Positions 553 through 11,956 of a DNA stretch of 64,000 bases are shown here, in pieces (within the stretch, counting starts at the first letter, position 1; each line of letters begins with the position of its first letter). The translations under genes and the position numbers were made by a program. The notes beneath the pieces are model-generated. The model searched no databases, was not told the DNA's origin, and worked only from the letters and a program-made list of their open reading frames with translations. The DNA comes from Chitinophagaceae bacterium (GTDB lineage Bacteria > Bacteroidota > Bacteroidia > Chitinophagales > Chitinophagaceae), in NCBI GenBank assembly GCA_004322425.1, contig SCVJ01000019.1, positions 1 to 64,000 on the forward strand, written 5' to 3'.

Positions 553-1449
553 TTATTTTGAAAAAATAAACACTAACGAACTGCATCGTTTTGGATGAAT
601 CAACGCCAATACATTTGACCATAATCCAACCATCAATGCCAGCATCCATCTTGTATTTTTGTATTTGTATTTACTGCTTAATAGACTGATATAAAAACTA
701 TCGAACCACATTGGTTTTATCTTTTCTAATCGCATGCCTTCATTTTCAATCAATAAGTTTAAACTTTCAAAATTAAAATGATACAGGTGACGAGGCACAT
801 CGTAAGCTGCCCAATATTGCTTAAAAAATTTAGCATCAAAACAATCATGGTTGGGAACAGCAATCACTAATTTCCCATCTTGTTTTAAAAGTTCTTTTAA
901 TTTTTGTACATAAGGTTTTAAAGAATGTACATGTTCCAAAACATGCCAAAGAGTTATCACATCAAATTGATTGGGTAAAAGTTGAAAAAAAATATTAGCA
1001 TCAATTAGCTCCACATTATTTAATTCCAAAGCCAATTTTCTGGTATTTTCATCGGGTTCAATGCCTACCACATTCCATCCTGCTTTTTTCATAGTGCCTG
1101 CAAAGAATCCAGTACCACTTCCCACATCCAACAAATTTCCATTTCCCTTATTCGTTATTTTCTCAATGAGTTTTTGTTTTTTACAAATCGTGTTTTTTCT
1201 AATTATTTGATATAATTTATTTATTAACCCTGCACTACTATTAGTGTGAGAAATATAATTTTTCGAATTGTAATAATTCGATATCAACAATTCATCGGGT
1301 GCATTTTGTGTAAACCAAAAGGAGCATTGCTTACATTCAGAAATGTTGAACTCTTCCCCACTAACAGTAAAATCTTTTGCAGCCAATGCAAATTGTGTAT
1401 TGGATGAATTGCATATTGGACAAATTGCTGATTGAACCTTATTTCTCAT
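553..1449 (-). CDS. Class I SAM-dependent methyltransferase with N-terminal zinc-finger-like motif
   Basis: 298 residues. An N-terminal Cys pair (CPIC, about residue 10) and a second pair (CKQC, about residue 39) look like a zinc-binding knuckle. A Rossmann methyltransferase domain follows, with motif I LLDVGSGTGFFAG near residue 101, the acidic SAM-ribose residue in VGIEPDE, and DVITLWHVLEHV near residue 165. The Cys-knuckle plus methyltransferase layout is common among enzymes acting on sugars or small molecules near envelope glycan genes. The substrate cannot be told from sequence. The C-terminus has a hydrophobic stretch (MLALMVGLWSNVLALI) that may touch the membrane. Confidence 0.8.
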   Translation of the reverse strand: MRNKVQSAICPICNSSNTQFALAAKDFTVSGEEFNISECKQCSFWFTQNAPDELLISNYYNSKNYISHTNSSAGLINKLYQIIRKNTICKKQKLIEKITNKGNGNLLDVGSGTGFFAGTMKKAGWNVVGIEPDENTRKLALELNNVELIDANIFFQLLPNQFDVITLWHVLEHVHSLKPYVQKLKELLKQDGKLVIAVPNHDCFDAKFFKQYWAAYDVPRHLYHFNFESLNLLIENEGMRLEKIKPMWFDSFYISLLSSKYKYKNTRWMLALMVGLWSNVLALIHPKRCSSLVFIFSK

Positions 1450-1503: not shown

Positions 1504-2118
1504 TTACTTCACTTGCATAACTACTTGGTTGCCTAATGAAGAAAGTGTTATTTTTTTACTTGAAAATTGCCAGCCGATTAAGCCGGCGCTTAAAATTGTG
1601 ATAAGAATAGCAGCACGCCAAGCATAATTTATATGCAAAGGCTTAATAGATAAAAGTTCTTCCATTTCCAAAGAAGATTTCTCAGATTCGCCTACAAGAA
1701 TAGAGTGCTCTTGCTTTTGGCGAATAATTTTATGAGCAGCCACAGAATCTCTATTTTGTAAATTACTACGATCAGTATCCAAAACTATTGCCCCTTTTTC
1801 ATCTCTGTGCAATACGCCAATTTTTTCCCAACACACGTCTCCGCTTTGTGTTATTGAGTTTTTTAAGTTGGCAGAAAACTCATTAACTTTTTTTATAGCG
1901 TCCCAATTTTCAATTTTTAATGTATGCGATAACCAATCGAATAATTTATCGGCTGGCTTGTCAATCGAATGATCTAAAATAAAATGTTGGTATGGAGCAA
2001 GAAATTTTTTATTGGCAATATCCAATTGCGCAGAGTTTTGTACTAACCGAATTGTTCCAATACCGGGCAATCCCAATTGGCGATTCAAAAGAATATATTG
2101 ATACAAAATGTTGTACAC
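1504..2118 (-). CDS. HU-like N-terminal domain protein with C-terminal membrane anchor
   Basis: 204 residues, beginning at GTG (2118-2116), whose G is the last base of the upstream gene's TAG stop, so the two genes are translationally coupled. The N-terminus (YILLNRQLGLPGIGTIRLV) resembles the HU-CCDC81-type domain that Bacteroidota place before SPOR or membrane segments. A polar linker follows, then one transmembrane segment at about residues 168-185 (AAILITILSAGLIGW) and a short tail. I see no SPOR domain. In Bacteroidota such proteins may bind peptidoglycan or DNA at the envelope; the function here is unknown. It is the last gene of a three-gene envelope unit. Confidence 0.65.
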   Translation of the reverse strand: MYNILYQYILLNRQLGLPGIGTIRLVQNSAQLDIANKKFLAPYQHFILDHSIDKPADKLFDWLSHTLKIENWDAIKKVNEFSANLKNSITQSGDVCWEKIGVLHRDEKGAIVLDTDRSNLQNRDSVAAHKIIRQKQEHSILVGESEKSSLEMEELLSIKPLHINYAWRAAILITILSAGLIGWQFSSKKITLSSLGNQVVMQVK

Positions 2119-3779
2119 TATTTTTTGTTTTTGTCAAATGCAAAAATAACGCCTGCAACAAAATTAAAACCATAATATGATGGAAATAAATTCCATCGCT
2201 GCAAATCTTGATTTAAAATATTGTTGCACTGCACCCAAATATTTATTTTTTGGGCCATACGATATTCAACGCCAGCCTTAACATCCAGAGCCCCTTTAAG
2301 TTGCATATACTCTGTTGGGCTACTCCTAAAATCAGCGCCCTTCCATCCAATTAAATCAGAACTTAACCAAACATCTTTTCCAACTTTTAAGCGAAAAGCT
2401 GCTTTCAACTCAAACGGAATTAACCCAAGTGGTTTTTTATTGATAGCAAGTTGTGCATATTGATAATGATTCACTGTCGCCAATATGGATAATTTTTCCT
2501 GAACAGTATATCCAAATTCAGCGTTTATTTGAAACATGCTGGCTGTTGGTTCAAATAGTATATTATATATTTTCGGTGGCATCGTCCAAATTCTTTGCGG
2601 ATCAAACAAAGGCAGCTGATGAAATTTATTAAATTTAAGCTTGGTACTGTAGTTAATGTGCTTGCCAACAGATCCTCTAAATCCTGCATAGCGTTCTTCT
2701 TTCCAAGTATTGCGTAATTGGTATGGTGCTTGCACCCATTGATTTTTAGATGTTAGGTTTTGGTATGAATTTACCTGTGCAGTTCCAATCCATCCTGCTT
2801 GAAATACAAATCGACTATCATCCGTACTCACTTCGGCACTTATATCAGGAAAAAATTTAAACGTTTGATTATCCCATGTAGGACGAATACCTACTCGCAA
2901 GTTTAATTTTGGTGTTTTCAAATGAACCGAAGGGTTGACACTAAAAACTGTATTGGTACTTGTAGCGATTGCCTCATTCTCATAGTTGATAAAATCTATA
3001 TTGCCTGATAAGTTTACAGCAAAAGATTTACCAACTTGTTTTTCAAATGGTAAGACTATCTTAATATGTTGTTCTTTACTTTTTGCTATAGCATAATCAT
3101 TAAAAATGAATGCAGAAATTTCGGGATGATAAATAACTCCGTATCGTGTGGGGTTCTTATTTCGGTATCCAAAATTCGTGTTCCAGCTCAGAAATCGCTG
3201 CTGGACATTACTGCTTAAAGTATTTGATGTTAAATGATCATAATTATTTCGGCTTATTTCAAACTTTAAATGCAATTCGTGGTTGGCTTGCAAAGTATAG
3301 AAACCACTTGCCCCAATTTTTGTTTCGTTATAATTTTGAAAACCATTTTTACTTGTTGAAGAAATGTGATTTGAAAAAATTTGCAAACCTTTCTTTATTC
3401 CATCTCCAAAAGAAAAGCCAGCTTGTAGCAATGGAGATTTCAAATTTCCAAACCCTGCTTTAATAGAATTGCTCAATTGCCACACTCCGCCCAGATCTAT
3501 TTCTAGCGCCAATGGTTTTATTGAAGCTGGGGAATAAGGAAATAGTAGATTTTGGTTTGGAATATTGTAATTCAATTTTGGCTTGCTGGTATCGACGGAA
3601 GCCGGAGTTGCCGTTAAATTTATTTTTGCAGCTTCTTTTAATACAGGTTTAAAAATAGAAGTAATTAAAACTGTTCTTTTTTTCATTGAATCCTGCTGGG
3701 AGTAAACAGAATTTGTAGAAAAAACAGCAATGATGAGCCAAAAAAATATTTTATTAATATTAAATATGTAAATTTTCAT
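2118..3779 (-). CDS. Outer-membrane beta-barrel protein (TonB-receptor-like, without plug)
   Basis: 553 residues with a signal peptide (hydrophobic run FFWLIIAVFSTNSVYSQ, cleavage probably after YSQ). A conserved-looking strip follows (SIFKPVLKEAAKINL, then NYNIPNQNLLFPY), and the rest is alternating aromatic/polar beta-strand sequence typical of a barrel, ending near GVIFAF. I see no plug domain or TonB box, so it is probably a barrel related to TonB-dependent receptors rather than a complete importer. It lies 27 bases downstream of the TPR gene and overlaps the HU-like gene by one base, so the three are probably made together. Confidence 0.65.
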   Translation of the reverse strand: MKIYIFNINKIFFWLIIAVFSTNSVYSQQDSMKKRTVLITSIFKPVLKEAAKINLTATPASVDTSKPKLNYNIPNQNLLFPYSPASIKPLALEIDLGGVWQLSNSIKAGFGNLKSPLLQAGFSFGDGIKKGLQIFSNHISSTSKNGFQNYNETKIGASGFYTLQANHELHLKFEISRNNYDHLTSNTLSSNVQQRFLSWNTNFGYRNKNPTRYGVIYHPEISAFIFNDYAIAKSKEQHIKIVLPFEKQVGKSFAVNLSGNIDFINYENEAIATSTNTVFSVNPSVHLKTPKLNLRVGIRPTWDNQTFKFFPDISAEVSTDDSRFVFQAGWIGTAQVNSYQNLTSKNQWVQAPYQLRNTWKEERYAGFRGSVGKHINYSTKLKFNKFHQLPLFDPQRIWTMPPKIYNILFEPTASMFQINAEFGYTVQEKLSILATVNHYQYAQLAINKKPLGLIPFELKAAFRLKVGKDVWLSSDLIGWKGADFRSSPTEYMQLKGALDVKAGVEYRMAQKINIWVQCNNILNQDLQRWNLFPSYYGFNFVAGVIFAFDKNKK

Positions 3780-3806
3780 AATCTCTCTTCTTGAATTTTA
3801 AATAGA

Positions 3807-6800
3807 CTACTCTACTATTTTACTAATTTTCTTCTCCTCCAACAAAACCAGATCTAGCTTATCTTTCGCTTCCTTTTTTAAATCTAACAAAGCAGAATTT
3901 TCTACCACACTTTGATACGTGGCTTTGGCATTGAAATAATCTTTTTGTTTATAATAAACATCTCCTAACAAAATATAGGTTTTGGTTACCCAAAATTCGT
4001 AAGAGCCCGATTTATTAATGACTTCAAAGGCAGCTTTTTCTGCTTCAGGATATTTATTTAAAACAAACCAACTCAAAGCAATTTCGTATCGCGCTTCGGC
4101 AGCTAACGATGCTTTATTGAGGGCTATAACTGTTTTATAATTTATAATTGCTGAATCAACTTGGTTCTTTTGTTGAAATGCTTTTGCAATAACCATTTTA
4201 GAAAGCGCTCGATCGTCTGTACTACTTCCGTTCAATGCAATTAATTCTTGAGCATTATTGAAAGCCTCTGTCCATTTTTTTTGCTGATATTGGCTCCGCA
4301 ACATTCCACGCATTGCCTCCAATTTAATTTCTTGAGAATTTGAAACCAGTTTTAATTCATCGTAATAAACTTCTGATGCTTCATAATCTTTCAATTCAAA
4401 AAAATAAATTCTCGCAGCTTGCAGTATGGCTTTTTCCGCATAATTATTAGGTGCCATTTCCGCTACTTCTTCATAGCCTTTCAATGCATTTTCCCAATCC
4501 TTTCGTTCATAATAAATTTCTCCCATAAAAAAATGTGCTGCAATTGCATATTGCCCTTTTGAAAATCGGAGTAAATAATTGTTTAGTGCAGACAATACAT
4601 TGGGGCTTTCATTATCGTATAAAATTTGAACTGCAATCCATGTCAAAGAATCCTCTGTTGACTCGCCCAATGGCTTACCAATTTGACGCATATAGGTTGC
4701 ATAGGCTTCTGTTTCTCCCTTTTCAATATAAATTGCTTTAATATTTTCCAACGCATCTTCCGCTTCAAATGAATGAGGGAAATTTTGAAGTAACTCTTTA
4801 TATTGAAAAAGCGACTCTTGGCTTTTATTGAGATTATAATAAACAATTCCCAATTTTAATAATGCGAGAGGTTTTAAATTATTTTTCGAATCTACTTTTA
4901 ATACTTCATTCAAATAAGGAATGGCATCTCTAAATTTTTCGTCAGCTAAAAAAGTATTAGCAATTTCCAAGTTCGCCTCCGCCACTAAGTTAGAATTAGG
5001 AAATTTTAGAATTAACGTATTCAGTAAATCAATTTTAACTGTTGGATTTTTAATACCCGCAATCAAGGCATTTTGATACCGAGCATAGTCTTCAGACGAC
5101 CTTGAAAAACTAATCAACTTCTCATAAATTGCCTTAGCTTTTGCATAGTCCCTATTCATAAAATAGCAATCAGCAATTCTCAAAGAAATATCGTAATCCA
5201 TATTGGAGGCGGCTGTCACAAGACTTTTTCCGATGGATTCAAAATATTGTAACGCAACTGCATAATTTTCTTTTCTTAAATAGCAATATCCCAAATTATA
5301 TCGTGCCGCTACAACATTTGCTTCCCCGTTATTGGGAGAATTTGCCGTTAAATAGTTTGTTAAAAACTGAATAGCCTCGTCCCACTGATTATTACGATAA
5401 GCAATCTCACCTTTCCAAAAATTGATAAATGCCAATAATGGTTGACTCGGGAAATTTTTAAGCGCTTTGTCCAACAACAAATTGGCTTCCATTAATTCGT
5501 TGTCATTAATTAATTCAGTAGCCCGACCATATAAGATTTTGGGATATATTTTTTTTAACTGAGCTGAAACAGTCGTCATGTTTTCAATCAACTGCAGCGC
5601 TTCACTATAATTATTTGTATTGGCCAATACCGCTACTAAATATTCTTTTGCTTCTGCAGCGTAATTTGACGTTGGATATTTTAAAAGAAAATCATTCAAA
5701 CTATTAAGTGCTTCATCTTCGAAACCTAATTCAAAAGATAATTTTGCATAATTAAAAGTTGAAATTTCTTTTTGCGTTGGATTACTACTATTGGACGCAC
5801 AAAACAGAAATGCATTCCGTCCCTTTGCTTTTTCACCCACTTTTAAATAAGCATCACCTAGCAGATACATAGCATGCTGACTTAACGAATCTATTTTTCC
5901 TCCTAATTGTTTAAACCCCTCAATAGCTTTTTGTAATTGCTCGGTTTGATAATATGTATAGGAAAGTTCATATAAATTTTCTCTAGTTACAATTGTCGAT
6001 CTATTGTAAACTTCTTCCAAATAAGGAACTGCTTGTGAATATTGAAACAACTCAAAATGTCCTTGACCAATTAATTGTTTCAATTCCAAATCATAATATT
6101 GCAAAGGCATTTTTCTAATGATGTTTTCTGCATATCGAATAGCTTCCTGTTTACGATTTTGAGTATAATAAATTTGTGCAATATAATAAGGTACAATTGT
6201 GTCATACTCCCTTTCACTTTCAACAATTTTAAAACTTTCTAATGCTTCGGTCCAATTTCCATTTTTAAAAGATAGGAAACCATAATAATAATTGGCAGCT
6301 GTATAATATTTTCCAACACCTAACTGTCGAATACTATTAAACAACTGAATGGCTTCGGAGAATCTTTGCAAAATAAAATACGAATACCCCTGATGAAATT
6401 TTAAATCGCCAATTTCCTCATTGCTGAGATGAGCAATATTACAAGCAGCATACCCTTGGGCAGCTTCTGAAAAATTTTGTTCTCTGTAATTATATTCAGC
6501 CAAATGAAAAGAAACTTGATGGACACGAGGATTATTTTTTTCAAGATTAATAAAATCCAGTGCATCAGATTTGGCTTTCTGCTCATTTTTTTTAAGCCCG
6601 CAAACAATATTGTAATACTTAATGTCTTGAATCAAAAGGCTGCCAGTTTCACTCGAAATTTCTTGTTGAAGCTCTTGAAACAATGGATAGGCTAGGCTTA
6701 ATTGATCTTTTTGAAAATACGTTTTTGCTTGTAAATATTTATCTTGAAATTCTCTTTCCCCCAAAGGTTGCTGAGCAGAAAGAGGAAGGACTAAACACCA

Positions 6801-6830
6801 ATATAATAAAACTATAAAAAATCTGCTCAT
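3807..6830 (-). CDS. Large tetratricopeptide-repeat protein, exported
   Basis: 1007 residues. The start carries a clear signal peptide (FFIVLLYWCLVLPLSAQQ). The rest is an almost continuous array of helical 34-residue TPR units; typical pieces are YYIAQIYYTQNRKQEAI, LGYCYLRKENYAVALQYF and MGEIYYERKDWENALKGYEEV. It probably acts as a periplasmic scaffold or partner of the barrel protein encoded next. No enzymatic motif is visible. It is the first gene of the unit 6830-1504. The upstream region, shared with the divergent DoxX gene, holds a perfect palindrome at 6924-6940. Confidence 0.8.
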   Translation of the reverse strand: MSRFFIVLLYWCLVLPLSAQQPLGEREFQDKYLQAKTYFQKDQLSLAYPLFQELQQEISSETGSLLIQDIKYYNIVCGLKKNEQKAKSDALDFINLEKNNPRVHQVSFHLAEYNYREQNFSEAAQGYAACNIAHLSNEEIGDLKFHQGYSYFILQRFSEAIQLFNSIRQLGVGKYYTAANYYYGFLSFKNGNWTEALESFKIVESEREYDTIVPYYIAQIYYTQNRKQEAIRYAENIIRKMPLQYYDLELKQLIGQGHFELFQYSQAVPYLEEVYNRSTIVTRENLYELSYTYYQTEQLQKAIEGFKQLGGKIDSLSQHAMYLLGDAYLKVGEKAKGRNAFLFCASNSSNPTQKEISTFNYAKLSFELGFEDEALNSLNDFLLKYPTSNYAAEAKEYLVAVLANTNNYSEALQLIENMTTVSAQLKKIYPKILYGRATELINDNELMEANLLLDKALKNFPSQPLLAFINFWKGEIAYRNNQWDEAIQFLTNYLTANSPNNGEANVVAARYNLGYCYLRKENYAVALQYFESIGKSLVTAASNMDYDISLRIADCYFMNRDYAKAKAIYEKLISFSRSSEDYARYQNALIAGIKNPTVKIDLLNTLILKFPNSNLVAEANLEIANTFLADEKFRDAIPYLNEVLKVDSKNNLKPLALLKLGIVYYNLNKSQESLFQYKELLQNFPHSFEAEDALENIKAIYIEKGETEAYATYMRQIGKPLGESTEDSLTWIAVQILYDNESPNVLSALNNYLLRFSKGQYAIAAHFFMGEIYYERKDWENALKGYEEVAEMAPNNYAEKAILQAARIYFFELKDYEASEVYYDELKLVSNSQEIKLEAMRGMLRSQYQQKKWTEAFNNAQELIALNGSSTDDRALSKMVIAKAFQQKNQVDSAIINYKTVIALNKASLAAEARYEIALSWFVLNKYPEAEKAAFEVINKSGSYEFWVTKTYILLGDVYYKQKDYFNAKATYQSVVENSALLDLKKEAKDKLDLVLLEEKKISKIVE

Positions 6831-6923
6831 GTCAATAAATCATTAATAGGATAGAAAATGTTGTAAATATTCAACTTATTTTTTCGTACACCAAACCAGA
6901 TTTCAAACAACTGTGGATAACTG

Positions 6924-6940
6924 AATCATTTGAAATGATT
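6924..6940. promoter_or_regulatory. 17-bp perfect palindrome between divergent genes
   Basis: AATCATTT-G-AAATGATT has 8-base arms around a single central G. It lies between the TPR operon start (6830, minus) and the DoxX gene (7012, plus). Such a symmetric site is a plausible operator for a dimeric regulator, but no regulator gene is adjacent. Confidence 0.4.
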
Positions 6941-6980
6941 TAACATTTTTTTTTGAAAAAATTACATCAAACGCTTTTCG

Positions 6981-6988
6981 TAATATTG
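6981..6988 (+). promoter_or_regulatory. Possible -7 box for the DoxX-thioesterase pair
   Basis: TAATATTG differs from the Bacteroidota box TAnnTTTG by one base. It lies 23 bases before the ATG at 7012. No clean -33 TTTG is found at the usual distance, so this is a weak call. Confidence 0.35.
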
Positions 6989-7011
6989 TGCCCTATTAAA
7001 AAAATTTAGTT

Positions 7012-7422
7012 ATGAGAAAATTATTCAGCACACGATATTCCGATACCGGAATTTCCGTTAGTTTGTTTTTTCTTCGAATTGCTTTTGGATTTTTACTTTT
7101 TTTTAATCATGGTTTACCTAAGTTGATGAAATTTGAAACCATGAAAGATTCATTTCCAGATCCGTTAAATATTGGCAACACTACAAGTCTTCTGCTAGTA
7201 ATCTTTGCCGAAGTATTTTGTGCCTTATTATTAGTGATGGGATTACTCAGCCGTGCCTCTGCATTTGTATTAGTTATATTATTTGGCGTTGCTATTTTTA
7301 TCATTCATAAAAACGATCCTATTGCTCAAAAGGAATCGGCTTATCTCTACCTTACAGTTTCAACTGCTTTATTGCTTTGCGGACCAGGAAAATGGAGTAT
7401 TGATAATTTAATTAGTAAATAG
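7012..7422 (+). CDS. DoxX family integral membrane protein
   Basis: 136 residues with four hydrophobic segments. The first (SLFFLRIAFGFLLFFNHGLPKL) is the family-typical start of DoxX/DoxD-like proteins and has the characteristic NHGLPKL motif. Later segments are LLLVIFAEVFCALLLVMGLL, AFVLVILFGVAIFII and LYLTVSTALLLCGPG. DoxX proteins are small quinone-related or redox-associated membrane proteins whose biochemical role is mostly unclear. Three bases separate its stop from the thioesterase ATG, so the two are cotranscribed. Confidence 0.85.
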   Translation: MRKLFSTRYSDTGISVSLFFLRIAFGFLLFFNHGLPKLMKFETMKDSFPDPLNIGNTTSLLLVIFAEVFCALLLVMGLLSRASAFVLVILFGVAIFIIHKNDPIAQKESAYLYLTVSTALLLCGPGKWSIDNLISK

Positions 7423-7425
7423 AAA

Positions 7426-7836
7426 ATGTTTACTTCCGAAACACAATTAAGGGTTCGTTATGCCGATACGGACCAGATGGGTGTTGTATACCACAGTAAC
7501 TATTTTGATTATTTTGAAGTAGGTCGAGCTGAAGCAATTCGCCAACTTGGATATACGTATGCAAAAATGGAAGAAGCAGGAATTTGTATGCCAATTGTAG
7601 ATGCACATGCAAGATTTCTTCGTCCTGCTTTATACGATAACTTACTTACAATAAAAACAACTTTAAAAGAATTACCTGTTCATCATAAAATAGAATTCGT
7701 TCATGAAATCTATAATGAACAGAATCAACTTCTTTGTTCTGGAAAAGTCATTTTATATTTTGTTGAAAAAACTTCAATGAAAAGAGCAGTAATGCCTGAA
7801 ATATTAAAGAAAATTTTAGAACCCTACTTTACATAA
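7426..7836 (+). CDS. Acyl-CoA thioesterase, YbgC/FadM-type hot-dog fold
   Basis: 136 residues, the normal size for a single 4HBT hot-dog domain. The diagnostic active-site strip RVRYADTDQMGVVYHSNYFDYFEVGRAE is near the N-terminus (residues 9-36) and contains the catalytic Asp of the YbgC/FadM group (YADTDQMG). The enzyme would hydrolyse acyl-CoA thioesters in the cytoplasm. It follows the DoxX gene by three bases; the link between the two functions is not evident. An acyl-CoA hydrolase is certain at family level; the chain-length preference is unknown. Confidence 0.9.
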   Translation: MFTSETQLRVRYADTDQMGVVYHSNYFDYFEVGRAEAIRQLGYTYAKMEEAGICMPIVDAHARFLRPALYDNLLTIKTTLKELPVHHKIEFVHEIYNEQNQLLCSGKVILYFVEKTSMKRAVMPEILKKILEPYFT

Positions 7837-10634: not shown

Positions 10635-10663
10635 AACGATAGGTTGAACTTTAAAAAACTACT

Positions 10664-11956
10664 ATGGCTTTAATTGATTTAATAATGCCAAAACTTGGCG
10701 AGAGTATTACCGAAGCAACCATTTTAAAATGGCTGAAACAACCTGGCGATACGATAAAATTAGATGAAACTTTGTTGGAGATTGCCACCGATAAAGTTGA
10801 CAGCGAAGTCCCGTCAACAGCGGAAGGAATTATTCATGAAATTTTATTCTCTGTAAACGATGTAGTACCAGTAGGTAAAGTAATTGCTCGAATTAAAACC
10901 ACAGCCGACGACACCATCAAAACTTTTTCTCCTGTTGTTTCTCAAAAAAAGTTGCACGTACCTAGCCAACAAAATAAAGAATCAATTATTGAAATAGCAC
11001 CCCCTAAAAGCACTGTTGCTATTGGACGTTTTTATTCTCCCTTAGTTTTGAATATTGCTGCGAGTGAAGCAATAAGTATGAGCGAACTTGAAAATATTCC
11101 TGGTACAGGAAATGAAGGAAGAGTTACTAAAAAAGATATTCTACAGTATGTAAATAATAGAGAGCAGGTAACTGCGCAAGAGCTAACAATTATAAAGGAA
11201 GTAGAAACACCTGTTATTTCGTCTTCTCAAATAACAACTTACTCCGGCAATGTAGAAATTATTGAAATGGACAGGATGCGAAAACTGATTGCCGATCACA
11301 TGGTTCGCAGCAAACATACCAGTCCCCATGTAACCAGTTTTACCGAAGCCGATGTTTCAAATATGGTTCTTTGGAGAGAAAAAGTAAAAAAAGAATTTGA
11401 AAAAAGAGAAGGGACAAAAATTACATTCACACCACTTTTTATTGAAGCAGTTGTAAAATGTATCAAAAAGTTCCCGTTGATGAATTGTTCCTTAGATGGC
11501 AATAAAATCATTATTAAAAAAGATATTAATATTGGAATGGCAACGGCATTACAATCTGGCAATTTGATTGTCCCTGTAATTAAAAATGCTGATCAGCTCA
11601 ATCTTGTTGGATTAGCCAAACAAGTAAATACTTTAGCCGACAATGCAAGAAACGGCAAACTGAAACCAGACGATACCAACAACGGAACATTTACAATAAC
11701 GAATGTGGGAAGTTTTGGAAGTCTGATGGGAACACCAATTATCAATCAACCGCAAGTTGCTATTTTGGCTGTTGGCGTTATCAAGAAACGACCAGTAGTA
11801 GTGGAAACCCCACACGGCGACAGCATTGCCATCCGCCACATGATGTATTTGAGTATGAGTTACGACCACCGAATTGTGGACGGAAGTTTAGGTGCAACAT
11901 TTCTAACTGCTGTTGCAAAAGAGTTGGAAAATTTTAATGGCGAAAGAGATTATTAA
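10664..11956 (+). CDS. 2-oxoacid dehydrogenase dihydrolipoyl acyltransferase (E2)
   Basis: 430 residues. One N-terminal lipoyl domain carries the lipoylated lysine in EIATDKVDSEVPS (Lys44). A peripheral-subunit-binding domain follows (RFYSPLVLNIAASE ... GRVTKKDILQYV, residues about 124-166). The C-terminal catalytic domain has the active-site His and Asp in SYDHRIVDG. E2 transfers the acyl group to CoA in a pyruvate, 2-oxoglutarate or branched-chain complex. A single lipoyl domain with the IATDKVDSEVPS strip suggests the branched-chain/generic E2 group rather than a multi-lipoyl pyruvate E2. No E1 or E3 gene is adjacent, so the substrate stays open. Confidence 0.9.
   Translation: MALIDLIMPKLGESITEATILKWLKQPGDTIKLDETLLEIATDKVDSEVPSTAEGIIHEILFSVNDVVPVGKVIARIKTTADDTIKTFSPVVSQKKLHVPSQQNKESIIEIAPPKSTVAIGRFYSPLVLNIAASEAISMSELENIPGTGNEGRVTKKDILQYVNNREQVTAQELTIIKEVETPVISSSQITTYSGNVEIIEMDRMRKLIADHMVRSKHTSPHVTSFTEADVSNMVLWREKVKKEFEKREGTKITFTPLFIEAVVKCIKKFPLMNCSLDGNKIIIKKDINIGMATALQSGNLIVPVIKNADQLNLVGLAKQVNTLADNARNGKLKPDDTNNGTFTITNVGSFGSLMGTPIINQPQVAILAVGVIKKRPVVVETPHGDSIAIRHMMYLSMSYDHRIVDGSLGATFLTAVAKELENFNGERDY

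Follow-up and report, generated by a model that had tools for sequence, protein, structure and literature searches.

How is the outer membrane of Bacteroidota constricted and tethered without a recognisable tol-pal locus? The question stood open in print in 2025, and further systems stabilising this membrane were expected to be found (PMC12204202). It is raised here by three genes in a window of 64,000 nucleotides (positions 1 to 64,000 of contig SCVJ01000019.1, assembly GCA_004322425.1) from a Chitinophagaceae bacterium whose genome comprises 2.24 Mb in 318 contigs. They encode an exported protein made of tetratricopeptide repeats (TPR), an outer-membrane barrel and a membrane protein with HU-like modules. 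An earlier reading made from the letters of the DNA, hereafter the sequence-only reading, had suggested that the three could form a trans-envelope complex. We find that they make one operon-like unit, kept far beyond the genus, which in many divergent lineages adjoins genes for a TolQ/TolR-type motor. With this linkage, which the sequence-only reading missed, the unit reads as a powered machine and no longer as a static scaffold. We give about even odds to the view that these genes supply a trans-envelope machine of Tol-like type, ancestral to Bacteroidota, with its outer-membrane part, its periplasmic part and its inner-membrane anchor. Such a machine, driven by the proton motive force, would probably serve outer-membrane constriction, for which the unit is a concrete and widely conserved candidate.

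The three genes form a conserved unit

The three genes are co-oriented on the minus strand and encode 1007, 553 and 204 amino acids (aa), in open reading frames (ORFs) whose positions were given beforehand. A gap of 27 bp separates the TPR and barrel genes, and one base is common to the stop codon of the barrel gene (TAG, 2120-2118) and the start codon of the HU gene (GTG, 2118-2116). Coordinates and overlap are as the sequence-only reading had them, and its operon-like arrangement holds.

We compared the window with its close relatives, i.e., the best 80 of 199 confirmed loci found with an alignment of 10 close barrels. The relatives are mostly Chitinophagaceae, Chitinophagales or unclassified Bacteroidetes, including Terrimonas, Niastella and Segetibacter. 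The TPR gene lies beside the barrel gene in 77 of the 80 loci, and all three misses begin at contig ends. The HU gene accompanies the barrel gene in 76; two of the other loci end too soon (L174, L191) and two lack it (L183, L193). In the 76 relatives with both genes, a start codon shares 1 or 4 nt with the barrel stop (24 cases), lies within 30 bp of it (34 more) or follows a longer gap (18). A search with the single barrel sequence found it in 52 of 59 relatives, with one strong copy per genome in nearly all.

At the level of the phylum, a draw of 198 genomes gave matches to the barrel profile in 182 and to the HU/SPOR profile in 185 (both at E ≤ 0.001), and to the TPR profile in 141 (E ≤ 1e-60); barrels and SPOR proteins of other kinds are probably among the weakest matches to the barrel and HU/SPOR profiles. 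Barrel and TPR protein are both present in all 49 genomes of the window's class, and in 48 of them the two genes share a strand with a gap below 1.2 kb (G108 has them apart). The survey of gene neighbourhoods proposed with the sequence-only reading thus finds the genes staying together, although only 14 of the 49 class-level genomes have the HU gene next to the barrel gene (by hand from coordinates). Five more, of family f27 and including G166, have at its position a gene of the type that encodes a transmembrane (TM) segment and SPOR; G201 was left out of this count.

The dispersal of single members bears on the alternative that three unrelated envelope genes are co-transcribed without a common function. 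The HU gene lies elsewhere in 18 of 18 genomes of family f24, and the TPR gene lies elsewhere in genomes of family f41, as this alternative would have it. The remaining pair, however, stays linked each time (TPR-barrel in f24 except in G108, barrel-HU in the f41 loci fetched), whereas other neighbours, such as a PhzF-like gene or the YbgC gene, come and go. We regard mere co-transcription as very improbable.

Motor genes adjoin the unit in divergent lineages

Genes of the TolQ/ExbB and TolR/ExbD types directly follow the HU/SPOR gene in 22 of 76 scanned loci (the window, L067-L126 and L211-L225, a few of which share a genome), from 13 families, a proportion that is not unbiased, since L105-L126 were mostly picked by HU matches and L211-L225 by barrel or TPR matches. 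The TPR gene is also present in 19 of the 22. At L106, both motor genes score over the Pfam cut-offs (PF01618, 79 bits; PF02472, 82 bits), and the first scores 65.6 bits as TolQ vs 40.6 as ExbB. Part of the loci have a third gene, encoding a TM helix, a low-complexity spacer rich in Pro, Glu and Lys, and a TonB-type C-terminal domain. A profile of this domain, built from nine sequences, matches that of Escherichia coli TonB (E 1.8e-6).

Twelve genomes were selected for the absence of TolQ from their scanned locus; a TolQ relative (36-51% identity) was found in all 12, and at L236, L237 and L240 it lies in a TolQ-TolR-transducer-FolC run. The window's own genome has two MotA/ExbB genes. One, on contig C67 (285 aa), comes with two ExbD genes. 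The TolQ-like one, on C177, is unlinked to the unit; four cluster TolQs share 39-46% identity with it, a fifth shares 35%, and C67, the genome's own ExbB, shares 27%. It scores 69.5 bits as TolQ (TIGR02796, cut-off 221) vs 42.5 as ExbB. A TolR-like gene of the ExbD/TolR family on C157, likewise unlinked, shares 36% identity with one cluster TolR and 22-23% with a further two.

The barrel resembles a TonB-dependent receptor without its plug

The barrel matched no Pfam family over its cut-off and no plug-domain family at E ≤ 1. Its structure model consists of a signal helix, a low-confidence tail of 76 residues and 22 strands by our count. The best match among solved structures is BtuB (Z 22.1, root-mean-square deviation 3.4-3.6, 417 residues aligned). 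In searches of PDB sequences, a profile of close barrels from the window's clade gave no convincing match, and one of 32 diverse barrels matched PfeA (E 1.3e-4). The sequence-only reading had described a barrel with neither plug nor TonB box. The first part agrees with the model, in which only residues 27-102 precede the strands, with a pLDDT (predicted local distance difference test score) below 50. On this model we take the barrel to be that of a TonB-dependent receptor that has lost its folded plug.

The second part of the claim is doubtful, since the tail contains a segment at residues 36-41 that resembles a TonB box and aligns in 54 of 54 barrels. All 54 have V, I, L or F at position 37 and I or V at position 39; at least 50 have T, E, S, D, Q or N at position 36, and 48 have P at position 45. 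A strict TonB-box pattern occurs in 38 of the 54 tails, vs 8.2 expected after shuffling.

Fold and tail would also suit a dedicated Ton system, in which the barrel would import or export one substrate, energised by an ExbB/ExbD/TonB set of its own; the TPR protein would then be a periplasmic adaptor, and SPOR and HU accessories. The unit shares with the Ton system and BtuB the 22-strand fold, the TonB-box-like N-terminal segment and the TonB-type domain of the linked third gene. A dedicated system would also fit the one strong copy of the barrel that nearly every barrel-bearing relative has per genome, and the slight leaning of the L106 TolR towards ExbD. The unit differs from the Ton system and BtuB in the missing plug and in the linked SPOR/HU and giant TPR proteins. 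A pore of such width would have no folded plug to gate it, presence in 49 of 49 class-level genomes is more in keeping with a housekeeping role than with uptake of a single substrate, and the SPOR and HU domains would be left unexplained. A dedicated Ton system is therefore, in our judgement, an unlikely explanation, albeit the foremost among the alternatives.

The TPR protein is exported and of generic repeat type

Pfam TPR repeats run along the whole protein, and a signal peptide is recognisable by eye, in line with the exported TPR protein of the sequence-only reading. The single TPR sequence matched one PDB sequence at E ≤ 0.001, that of CpoB (6g5s, E 2.5e-4). The CpoB/YbgF model TIGR02795 gave 134 bits (cut-off 90), but this score is the sum over seven repeat stretches of the 1007 aa. 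Used against the PDB, the family profile matched designed TPRs most strongly, BamD and CpoB about equally, and also LapB, so that the link with CpoB proves little by itself. The protein was also considered as PorW/SprE of the type IX secretion system (T9SS), an identity that we rejected: the score was 52.5 bits vs a cut-off of 250 and came from the TPR repeats.

The matches to BamD and LapB suit an explanation by outer-membrane biogenesis, in which TPR protein and barrel, powered by the motor, would assemble or transport outer-membrane components (proteins, lipopolysaccharide or phospholipids). The beta-barrel assembly machinery (BAM) of Bacteroidota has an extra transmembrane outer-membrane protein, BamG (PMC12611786). 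Nevertheless, the TPR matches are those of generic repeats, with designed proteins at the top, and SPOR and HU would again be left unexplained. The Bam subunits described are other kinds of protein: besides BamG, BamH and BamM are surface lipoproteins and BamP is partly periplasmic (PMC12611786). BamD, BamG, BamH, BamM and BamP were accordingly set aside as candidates, by description alone. Outer-membrane biogenesis is improbable in our view, and comes after both the dedicated Ton system and the chromosome-related role weighed below.

The HU membrane protein has SPOR-bearing orthologs

The third protein had been described as having an HU-like N-terminus and one membrane segment. Its model (pLDDT 85) confirms the fold, as residues 54-122 match E. 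coli HU (4p3v, Z 6.4, 69 residues), and has a single membrane helix at residues 165-187. The location needs amending: there are two HU modules, spread over residues 1-122 and not just the first 60. In the suggested comparison with HU-CCDC81 profiles, PF18175 (HU-CCDC81_bac_2) matched residues 59-115 with 27 bits (E 4e-6), under its cut-off of 35 bits, and PF18174 (HU-CCDC81_bac_1) had no match in the window's protein. PF18175 is unspecific at low scores, ringing in 11 of 14 control genomes at E ≤ 10 and in 6 of 14 at E 0.001, over the cut-off in one each time.

Scores are higher in orthologs: PF18175 reaches 70 and 83 bits at L106 and L112, and PF18174 (cut-off 26) 35 and 73 bits at these loci, 22 at L083 and 17 at L071. 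SPOR is over its cut-off at L112, L119 and L218, and just below at L106, L215 and L083; the L112 protein has PF18174, PF18175 and SPOR all over cut-off. A profile of 51 short forms (see below) matched IHF/HU (best E 0.007), and one of 23 diverse members matched IHF-alpha (E 3e-5), the SPOR domain of FtsN (E 3e-4) and that of a sporulation amidase. Foldseek gave no match of the HU model to an HU protein at E ≤ 0.001. The 204-aa protein probably belongs with the HU-CCDC81 proteins, with which it shares tandem HU modules, one membrane span and, in orthologs, SPOR. It departs from them in scoring under the cut-off for domain 2, in having no match for domain 1 and in lacking SPOR (Pfam); its C-terminus ends about 17 residues past the helix. 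Pfam already has names for such HU domains, a point that the sequence-only reading missed, as it did the SPOR domain at the end of many orthologs.

The short form is characteristic of the window's clade. We scored 127 HU proteins (redundant genomes included, two short fragments dropped), of which 87 have fewer than 60 residues beyond the helix (median 22) and 40 have a longer C-terminus (median 144.5). The 87 comprise 74 scored from the 80 close relatives, the window and the nearest family-f1 genomes. Other f1 genomes have the long form (e.g., L080-L083 and L104), so that the loss of SPOR concerns the window's clade and not the whole family. Family f27 (L214 and L215) has a TM/SPOR-type protein in the HU position; at L215, where Pfam finds SPOR just under cut-off and no HU domain, the reverse of this loss is seen.

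The HU side of the helix is predicted to be cytoplasmic, since Lys/Arg are more frequent in the 15 residues before the helix than in the 15 after it (means of 2.33 vs 1.03 in the 87 short forms, and 3.45 vs 1.38 in the 40 long ones); in the window's protein the counts are 2 and 2. Between HU modules and helix, the conserved juxtamembrane motif is modelled, at lower confidence, as a beta hairpin plus a helix. Eight of nine divergent loci have a separate small HU1 gene (60-126 aa) in the gap of 200-500 bp between the barrel and HU genes (L110, L111, L119-L121 and L124-L126; L123 is without, and L109 was left out). It was matched at E 4e-8 to 4e-5 in a profile search with --max against a tiny set. 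From these sequences, HU1 and HU2 look like two subunits that fused into the tandem protein.

Bacterial CCDC81-like HU proteins were reportedly proposed by Burroughs and colleagues in 2017 to act in chromosome partition. The unit might accordingly be a nucleoid tether, its HU modules binding DNA and anchoring the nucleoid to the septum via TM and SPOR, with the TPR protein and barrel extending the anchor to the outer membrane. The HU fold and IHF/HU profile matches, the TM and SPOR architecture with the HU side inside on average, and the separate HU1 gene before the HU2-TM-SPOR gene, with an apparent HU-like arm, would all fit. On the other hand, the HU modules are not basic, which makes DNA binding doubtful, the window's model has no long arm, and at L215 the unit stays without a recognisable HU domain. 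We consider a nucleoid tether unlikely, next in rank to the dedicated Ton system.

Two side observations concern these modules. In a second look, residues 1-124 of the model matched 9io5_T (Z 7.0), a subunit from the gliding ATPase dimer of Mycoplasma mobile, and 8snb_1K (Z 6.9), a sea-urchin doublet-microtubule protein, level with the 6.4 of HU. The latter protein, 8snb_1K, is presumably a CCDC81 relative. Two further HU-CCDC81-like ORFs of the window's genome, of 281 and 132 aa, lie at L032 (G000:C31, 321-1731); the smaller gives 35.2 bits with PF18175, at the cut-off of 35.

A candidate Tol-like machine

A Tol-like machine makes the best sense of a proton-channel pair, a TonB-type transducer, a plug-less barrel with a TonB-box-like tail, a TPR protein and a SPOR protein. 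Energy from the proton motive force would pass through TolQ and TolR to the TonB-type transducer, and the C-terminal domain of the transducer may grip the N-terminal tail of the barrel, the TPR superhelix or both. The SPOR domain, where present, would bring the assembly to septal peptidoglycan, and the cytoplasmic HU modules could serve as reporters of, or docking sites for, DNA or some other partner in the cytoplasm. If the integral barrel were pulled repeatedly at the septum, the outer membrane would be drawn in as the cell divides, a task that Tol-Pal accomplishes elsewhere via TolB and Pal (for a description of Tol-Pal at the septum, see PMC9389320). The window's clade has the motor genes at other places and no SPOR, which leaves TPR, barrel and HU as the one operon. 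Of the trans-envelope complex of the sequence-only reading, the linkage, the exported TPR protein, the plug-less barrel and the HU domain on a membrane protein all stand; the absence of a TonB box does not stand as firmly.

The likeness to Tol-Pal (TolQ-TolR-TolA-TolB-Pal-CpoB, with YbgC) lies in the linkage of TolQ/TolR-type genes to genes for a periplasmic TPR protein and for a component of the outer membrane, in the single-span transducer of part of the loci, and in a YbgC/FadM thioesterase as frequent neighbour in the window's family. The differences are substantial. An integral barrel of TonB-receptor type takes the outer-membrane place, the TPR protein is about four times as long as the CpoB model, and the HU/TM/SPOR protein has no counterpart. 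In the window's genome TolB_N (PF04052) had no match up to E 10, and Pal (TIGR02802) had two, of 84 and 83 bits in long frames, under the equivalog cut-off of 125; PF04052 rings in 5 of 14 control genomes, including E. coli and Bacteroides ihuae. A 2025 paper states that Bacteroidetes have no identifiable tol-pal loci (PMC12204202), and offers as an answer PorE, a proposed outer-membrane tether of Bacteroidetes. PorE is a single T9SS lipoprotein with CpoB-, TolB- and Pal-like parts, whereas the system here is a multi-gene set, motor-linked in divergent lineages. In the open literature, covered mostly by titles and abstracts, with subscription papers and preprints outside this scope, we found no description of the gene set or its operon partners.

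Several observations weigh against a Tol-like machine. None of the three motor genes lies within the loci of the 80 close relatives (0/80), and at L095, an f1 locus, a TolQ-like gene stands on the opposite strand at a distance of about 5 kb. At L106, TolQ and TolR stay under their equivalog cut-offs (65.6 vs 221 and 33.4 vs 127 bits), and TolR scores slightly better as ExbD (39.0 bits). The transducer profile reaches TolA only at E 0.4, via the low-complexity part. With TolR leaning to ExbD, low equivalog scores and a transducer matching TonB, the motor may be Ton-like. As for the barrel, the strict TonB-box pattern misses 16 of the 54 tails, the window's among them, some of the 38 matches sit away from the aligned site, and the reading of residues 36-41 leans on likeness to a general TonB-box consensus. 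SPOR, the one domain tied to the septum, is absent from the window's HU protein. The HU region of these proteins is not basic (median net charge of residues 1-125 of 0 in short and -3 in long forms), and at L215 TM and SPOR remain although no HU domain is recognised (Pfam). The TolB_N and Pal models both ring in B. ihuae, and in other work putative TolB-Pal fusions are mentioned (PMC12204202), Bacteroidetes are counted as having an almost complete Tol-Pal by hidden Markov models (PMC8871954) and a Pal homolog is reported from Cytophaga hutchinsonii (PMC5891637). Finally, we infer the division role, as well as the contacts and energetics.

A more specific proposal is tentative, and we lean somewhat against its holding in full: that TolB and Pal were replaced in Bacteroidota by an emptied TonB receptor. 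A TonB-like protein driven by TolQ/TolR would pull the TonB-box tail of the plug-less 22-strand barrel, held by the 1000-residue TPR superhelix. The site would be set by the membrane protein, reading septal peptidoglycan outside (SPOR) and the nucleoid or a divisome partner inside (HU), and the outer membrane would be drawn in at division.

Features and neighbouring genes

Table 1. Features of the unit and its divergent neighbour, in window coordinates.
Feature	Position	Strand	Basis
Exported TPR superhelix protein, 1007 aa	3807..6830	-	ORF; Pfam; CpoB 6g5s match
Signal peptide of TPR protein, residues about 1-19	6774..6830	-	By eye from translation; no lipobox seen
Outer-membrane barrel, TonB-dependent-receptor type without folded plug, 553 aa	2118..3779	-	ORF; structure model; profile search
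Barrel N-terminal tail, residues 27-102	3474..3701	-	pLDDT below 50 in model; conserved in sequence
TonB-box-like segment, residues 36-41	3657..3674	-	Alignment of 54 barrels; general TonB-box consensus
22-stranded barrel, residues 103-549	2133..3473	-	Model; BtuB match
TAGTG stop/start overlap of barrel and HU genes	2116..2120	-	Read from sequence
Tandem-HU membrane protein, 204 aa, HU-CCDC81 type, short form without SPOR	1504..2118	-	ORF; Pfam; model
HU module 1, residues 1-50	1969..2118	-	Model; without Pfam match in the window
HU module 2, residues 54-122	1753..1959	-	PF18175, 27 bits; HU 4p3v, Z 6.4; IHF/HU sequences, best E 0.007
Juxtamembrane motif of short form, residues 128-155, KVIRxxAxHxVLVGExExTSxEM	1654..1737	-	Alignment of 51
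Single membrane helix, residues 165-187, HU side predicted cytoplasmic	1558..1626	-	Model; Lys/Arg bias in homologues
YbgC/FadM-family acyl-CoA thioesterase, divergent neighbour	7426..7836	+	TIGR00051, 99.9 bits, cut-off 68.7; TIGR02799 (thio_ybgC), 87 bits, cut-off 141

A DoxX gene and the thioesterase gene (7012-7836, plus strand) are divergent from the TPR gene. Among the 67 close-relative loci with enough sequence, the thioesterase lies within 3 kb upstream of the TPR gene in 52 and DoxX in 43. A YbgC-type thioesterase upstream of TPR was found in no scanned locus outside family f1. An association of the thioesterase with the unit is possible but weak; YbgC and DoxX, upstream of TPR solely in f1 loci, were therefore rejected as members of the system and kept as weak neighbours. 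At L237 a YbgC/FadM-like gene (by eye; 10635-11084, minus strand) lies about 1 kb past the FolC gene of a TolQ-TolR-TolR-transducer-FolC run.

Downstream of the unit, a class I methyltransferase gene (553-1449, minus strand) has a relative in 64 of the 77 related loci that bear TPR. At L211 a PhzF-like gene (6310-7173, by reading of the sequence) stands between the TPR and barrel genes, and five other class-level genomes have a similar gap of 1.1 kb there.

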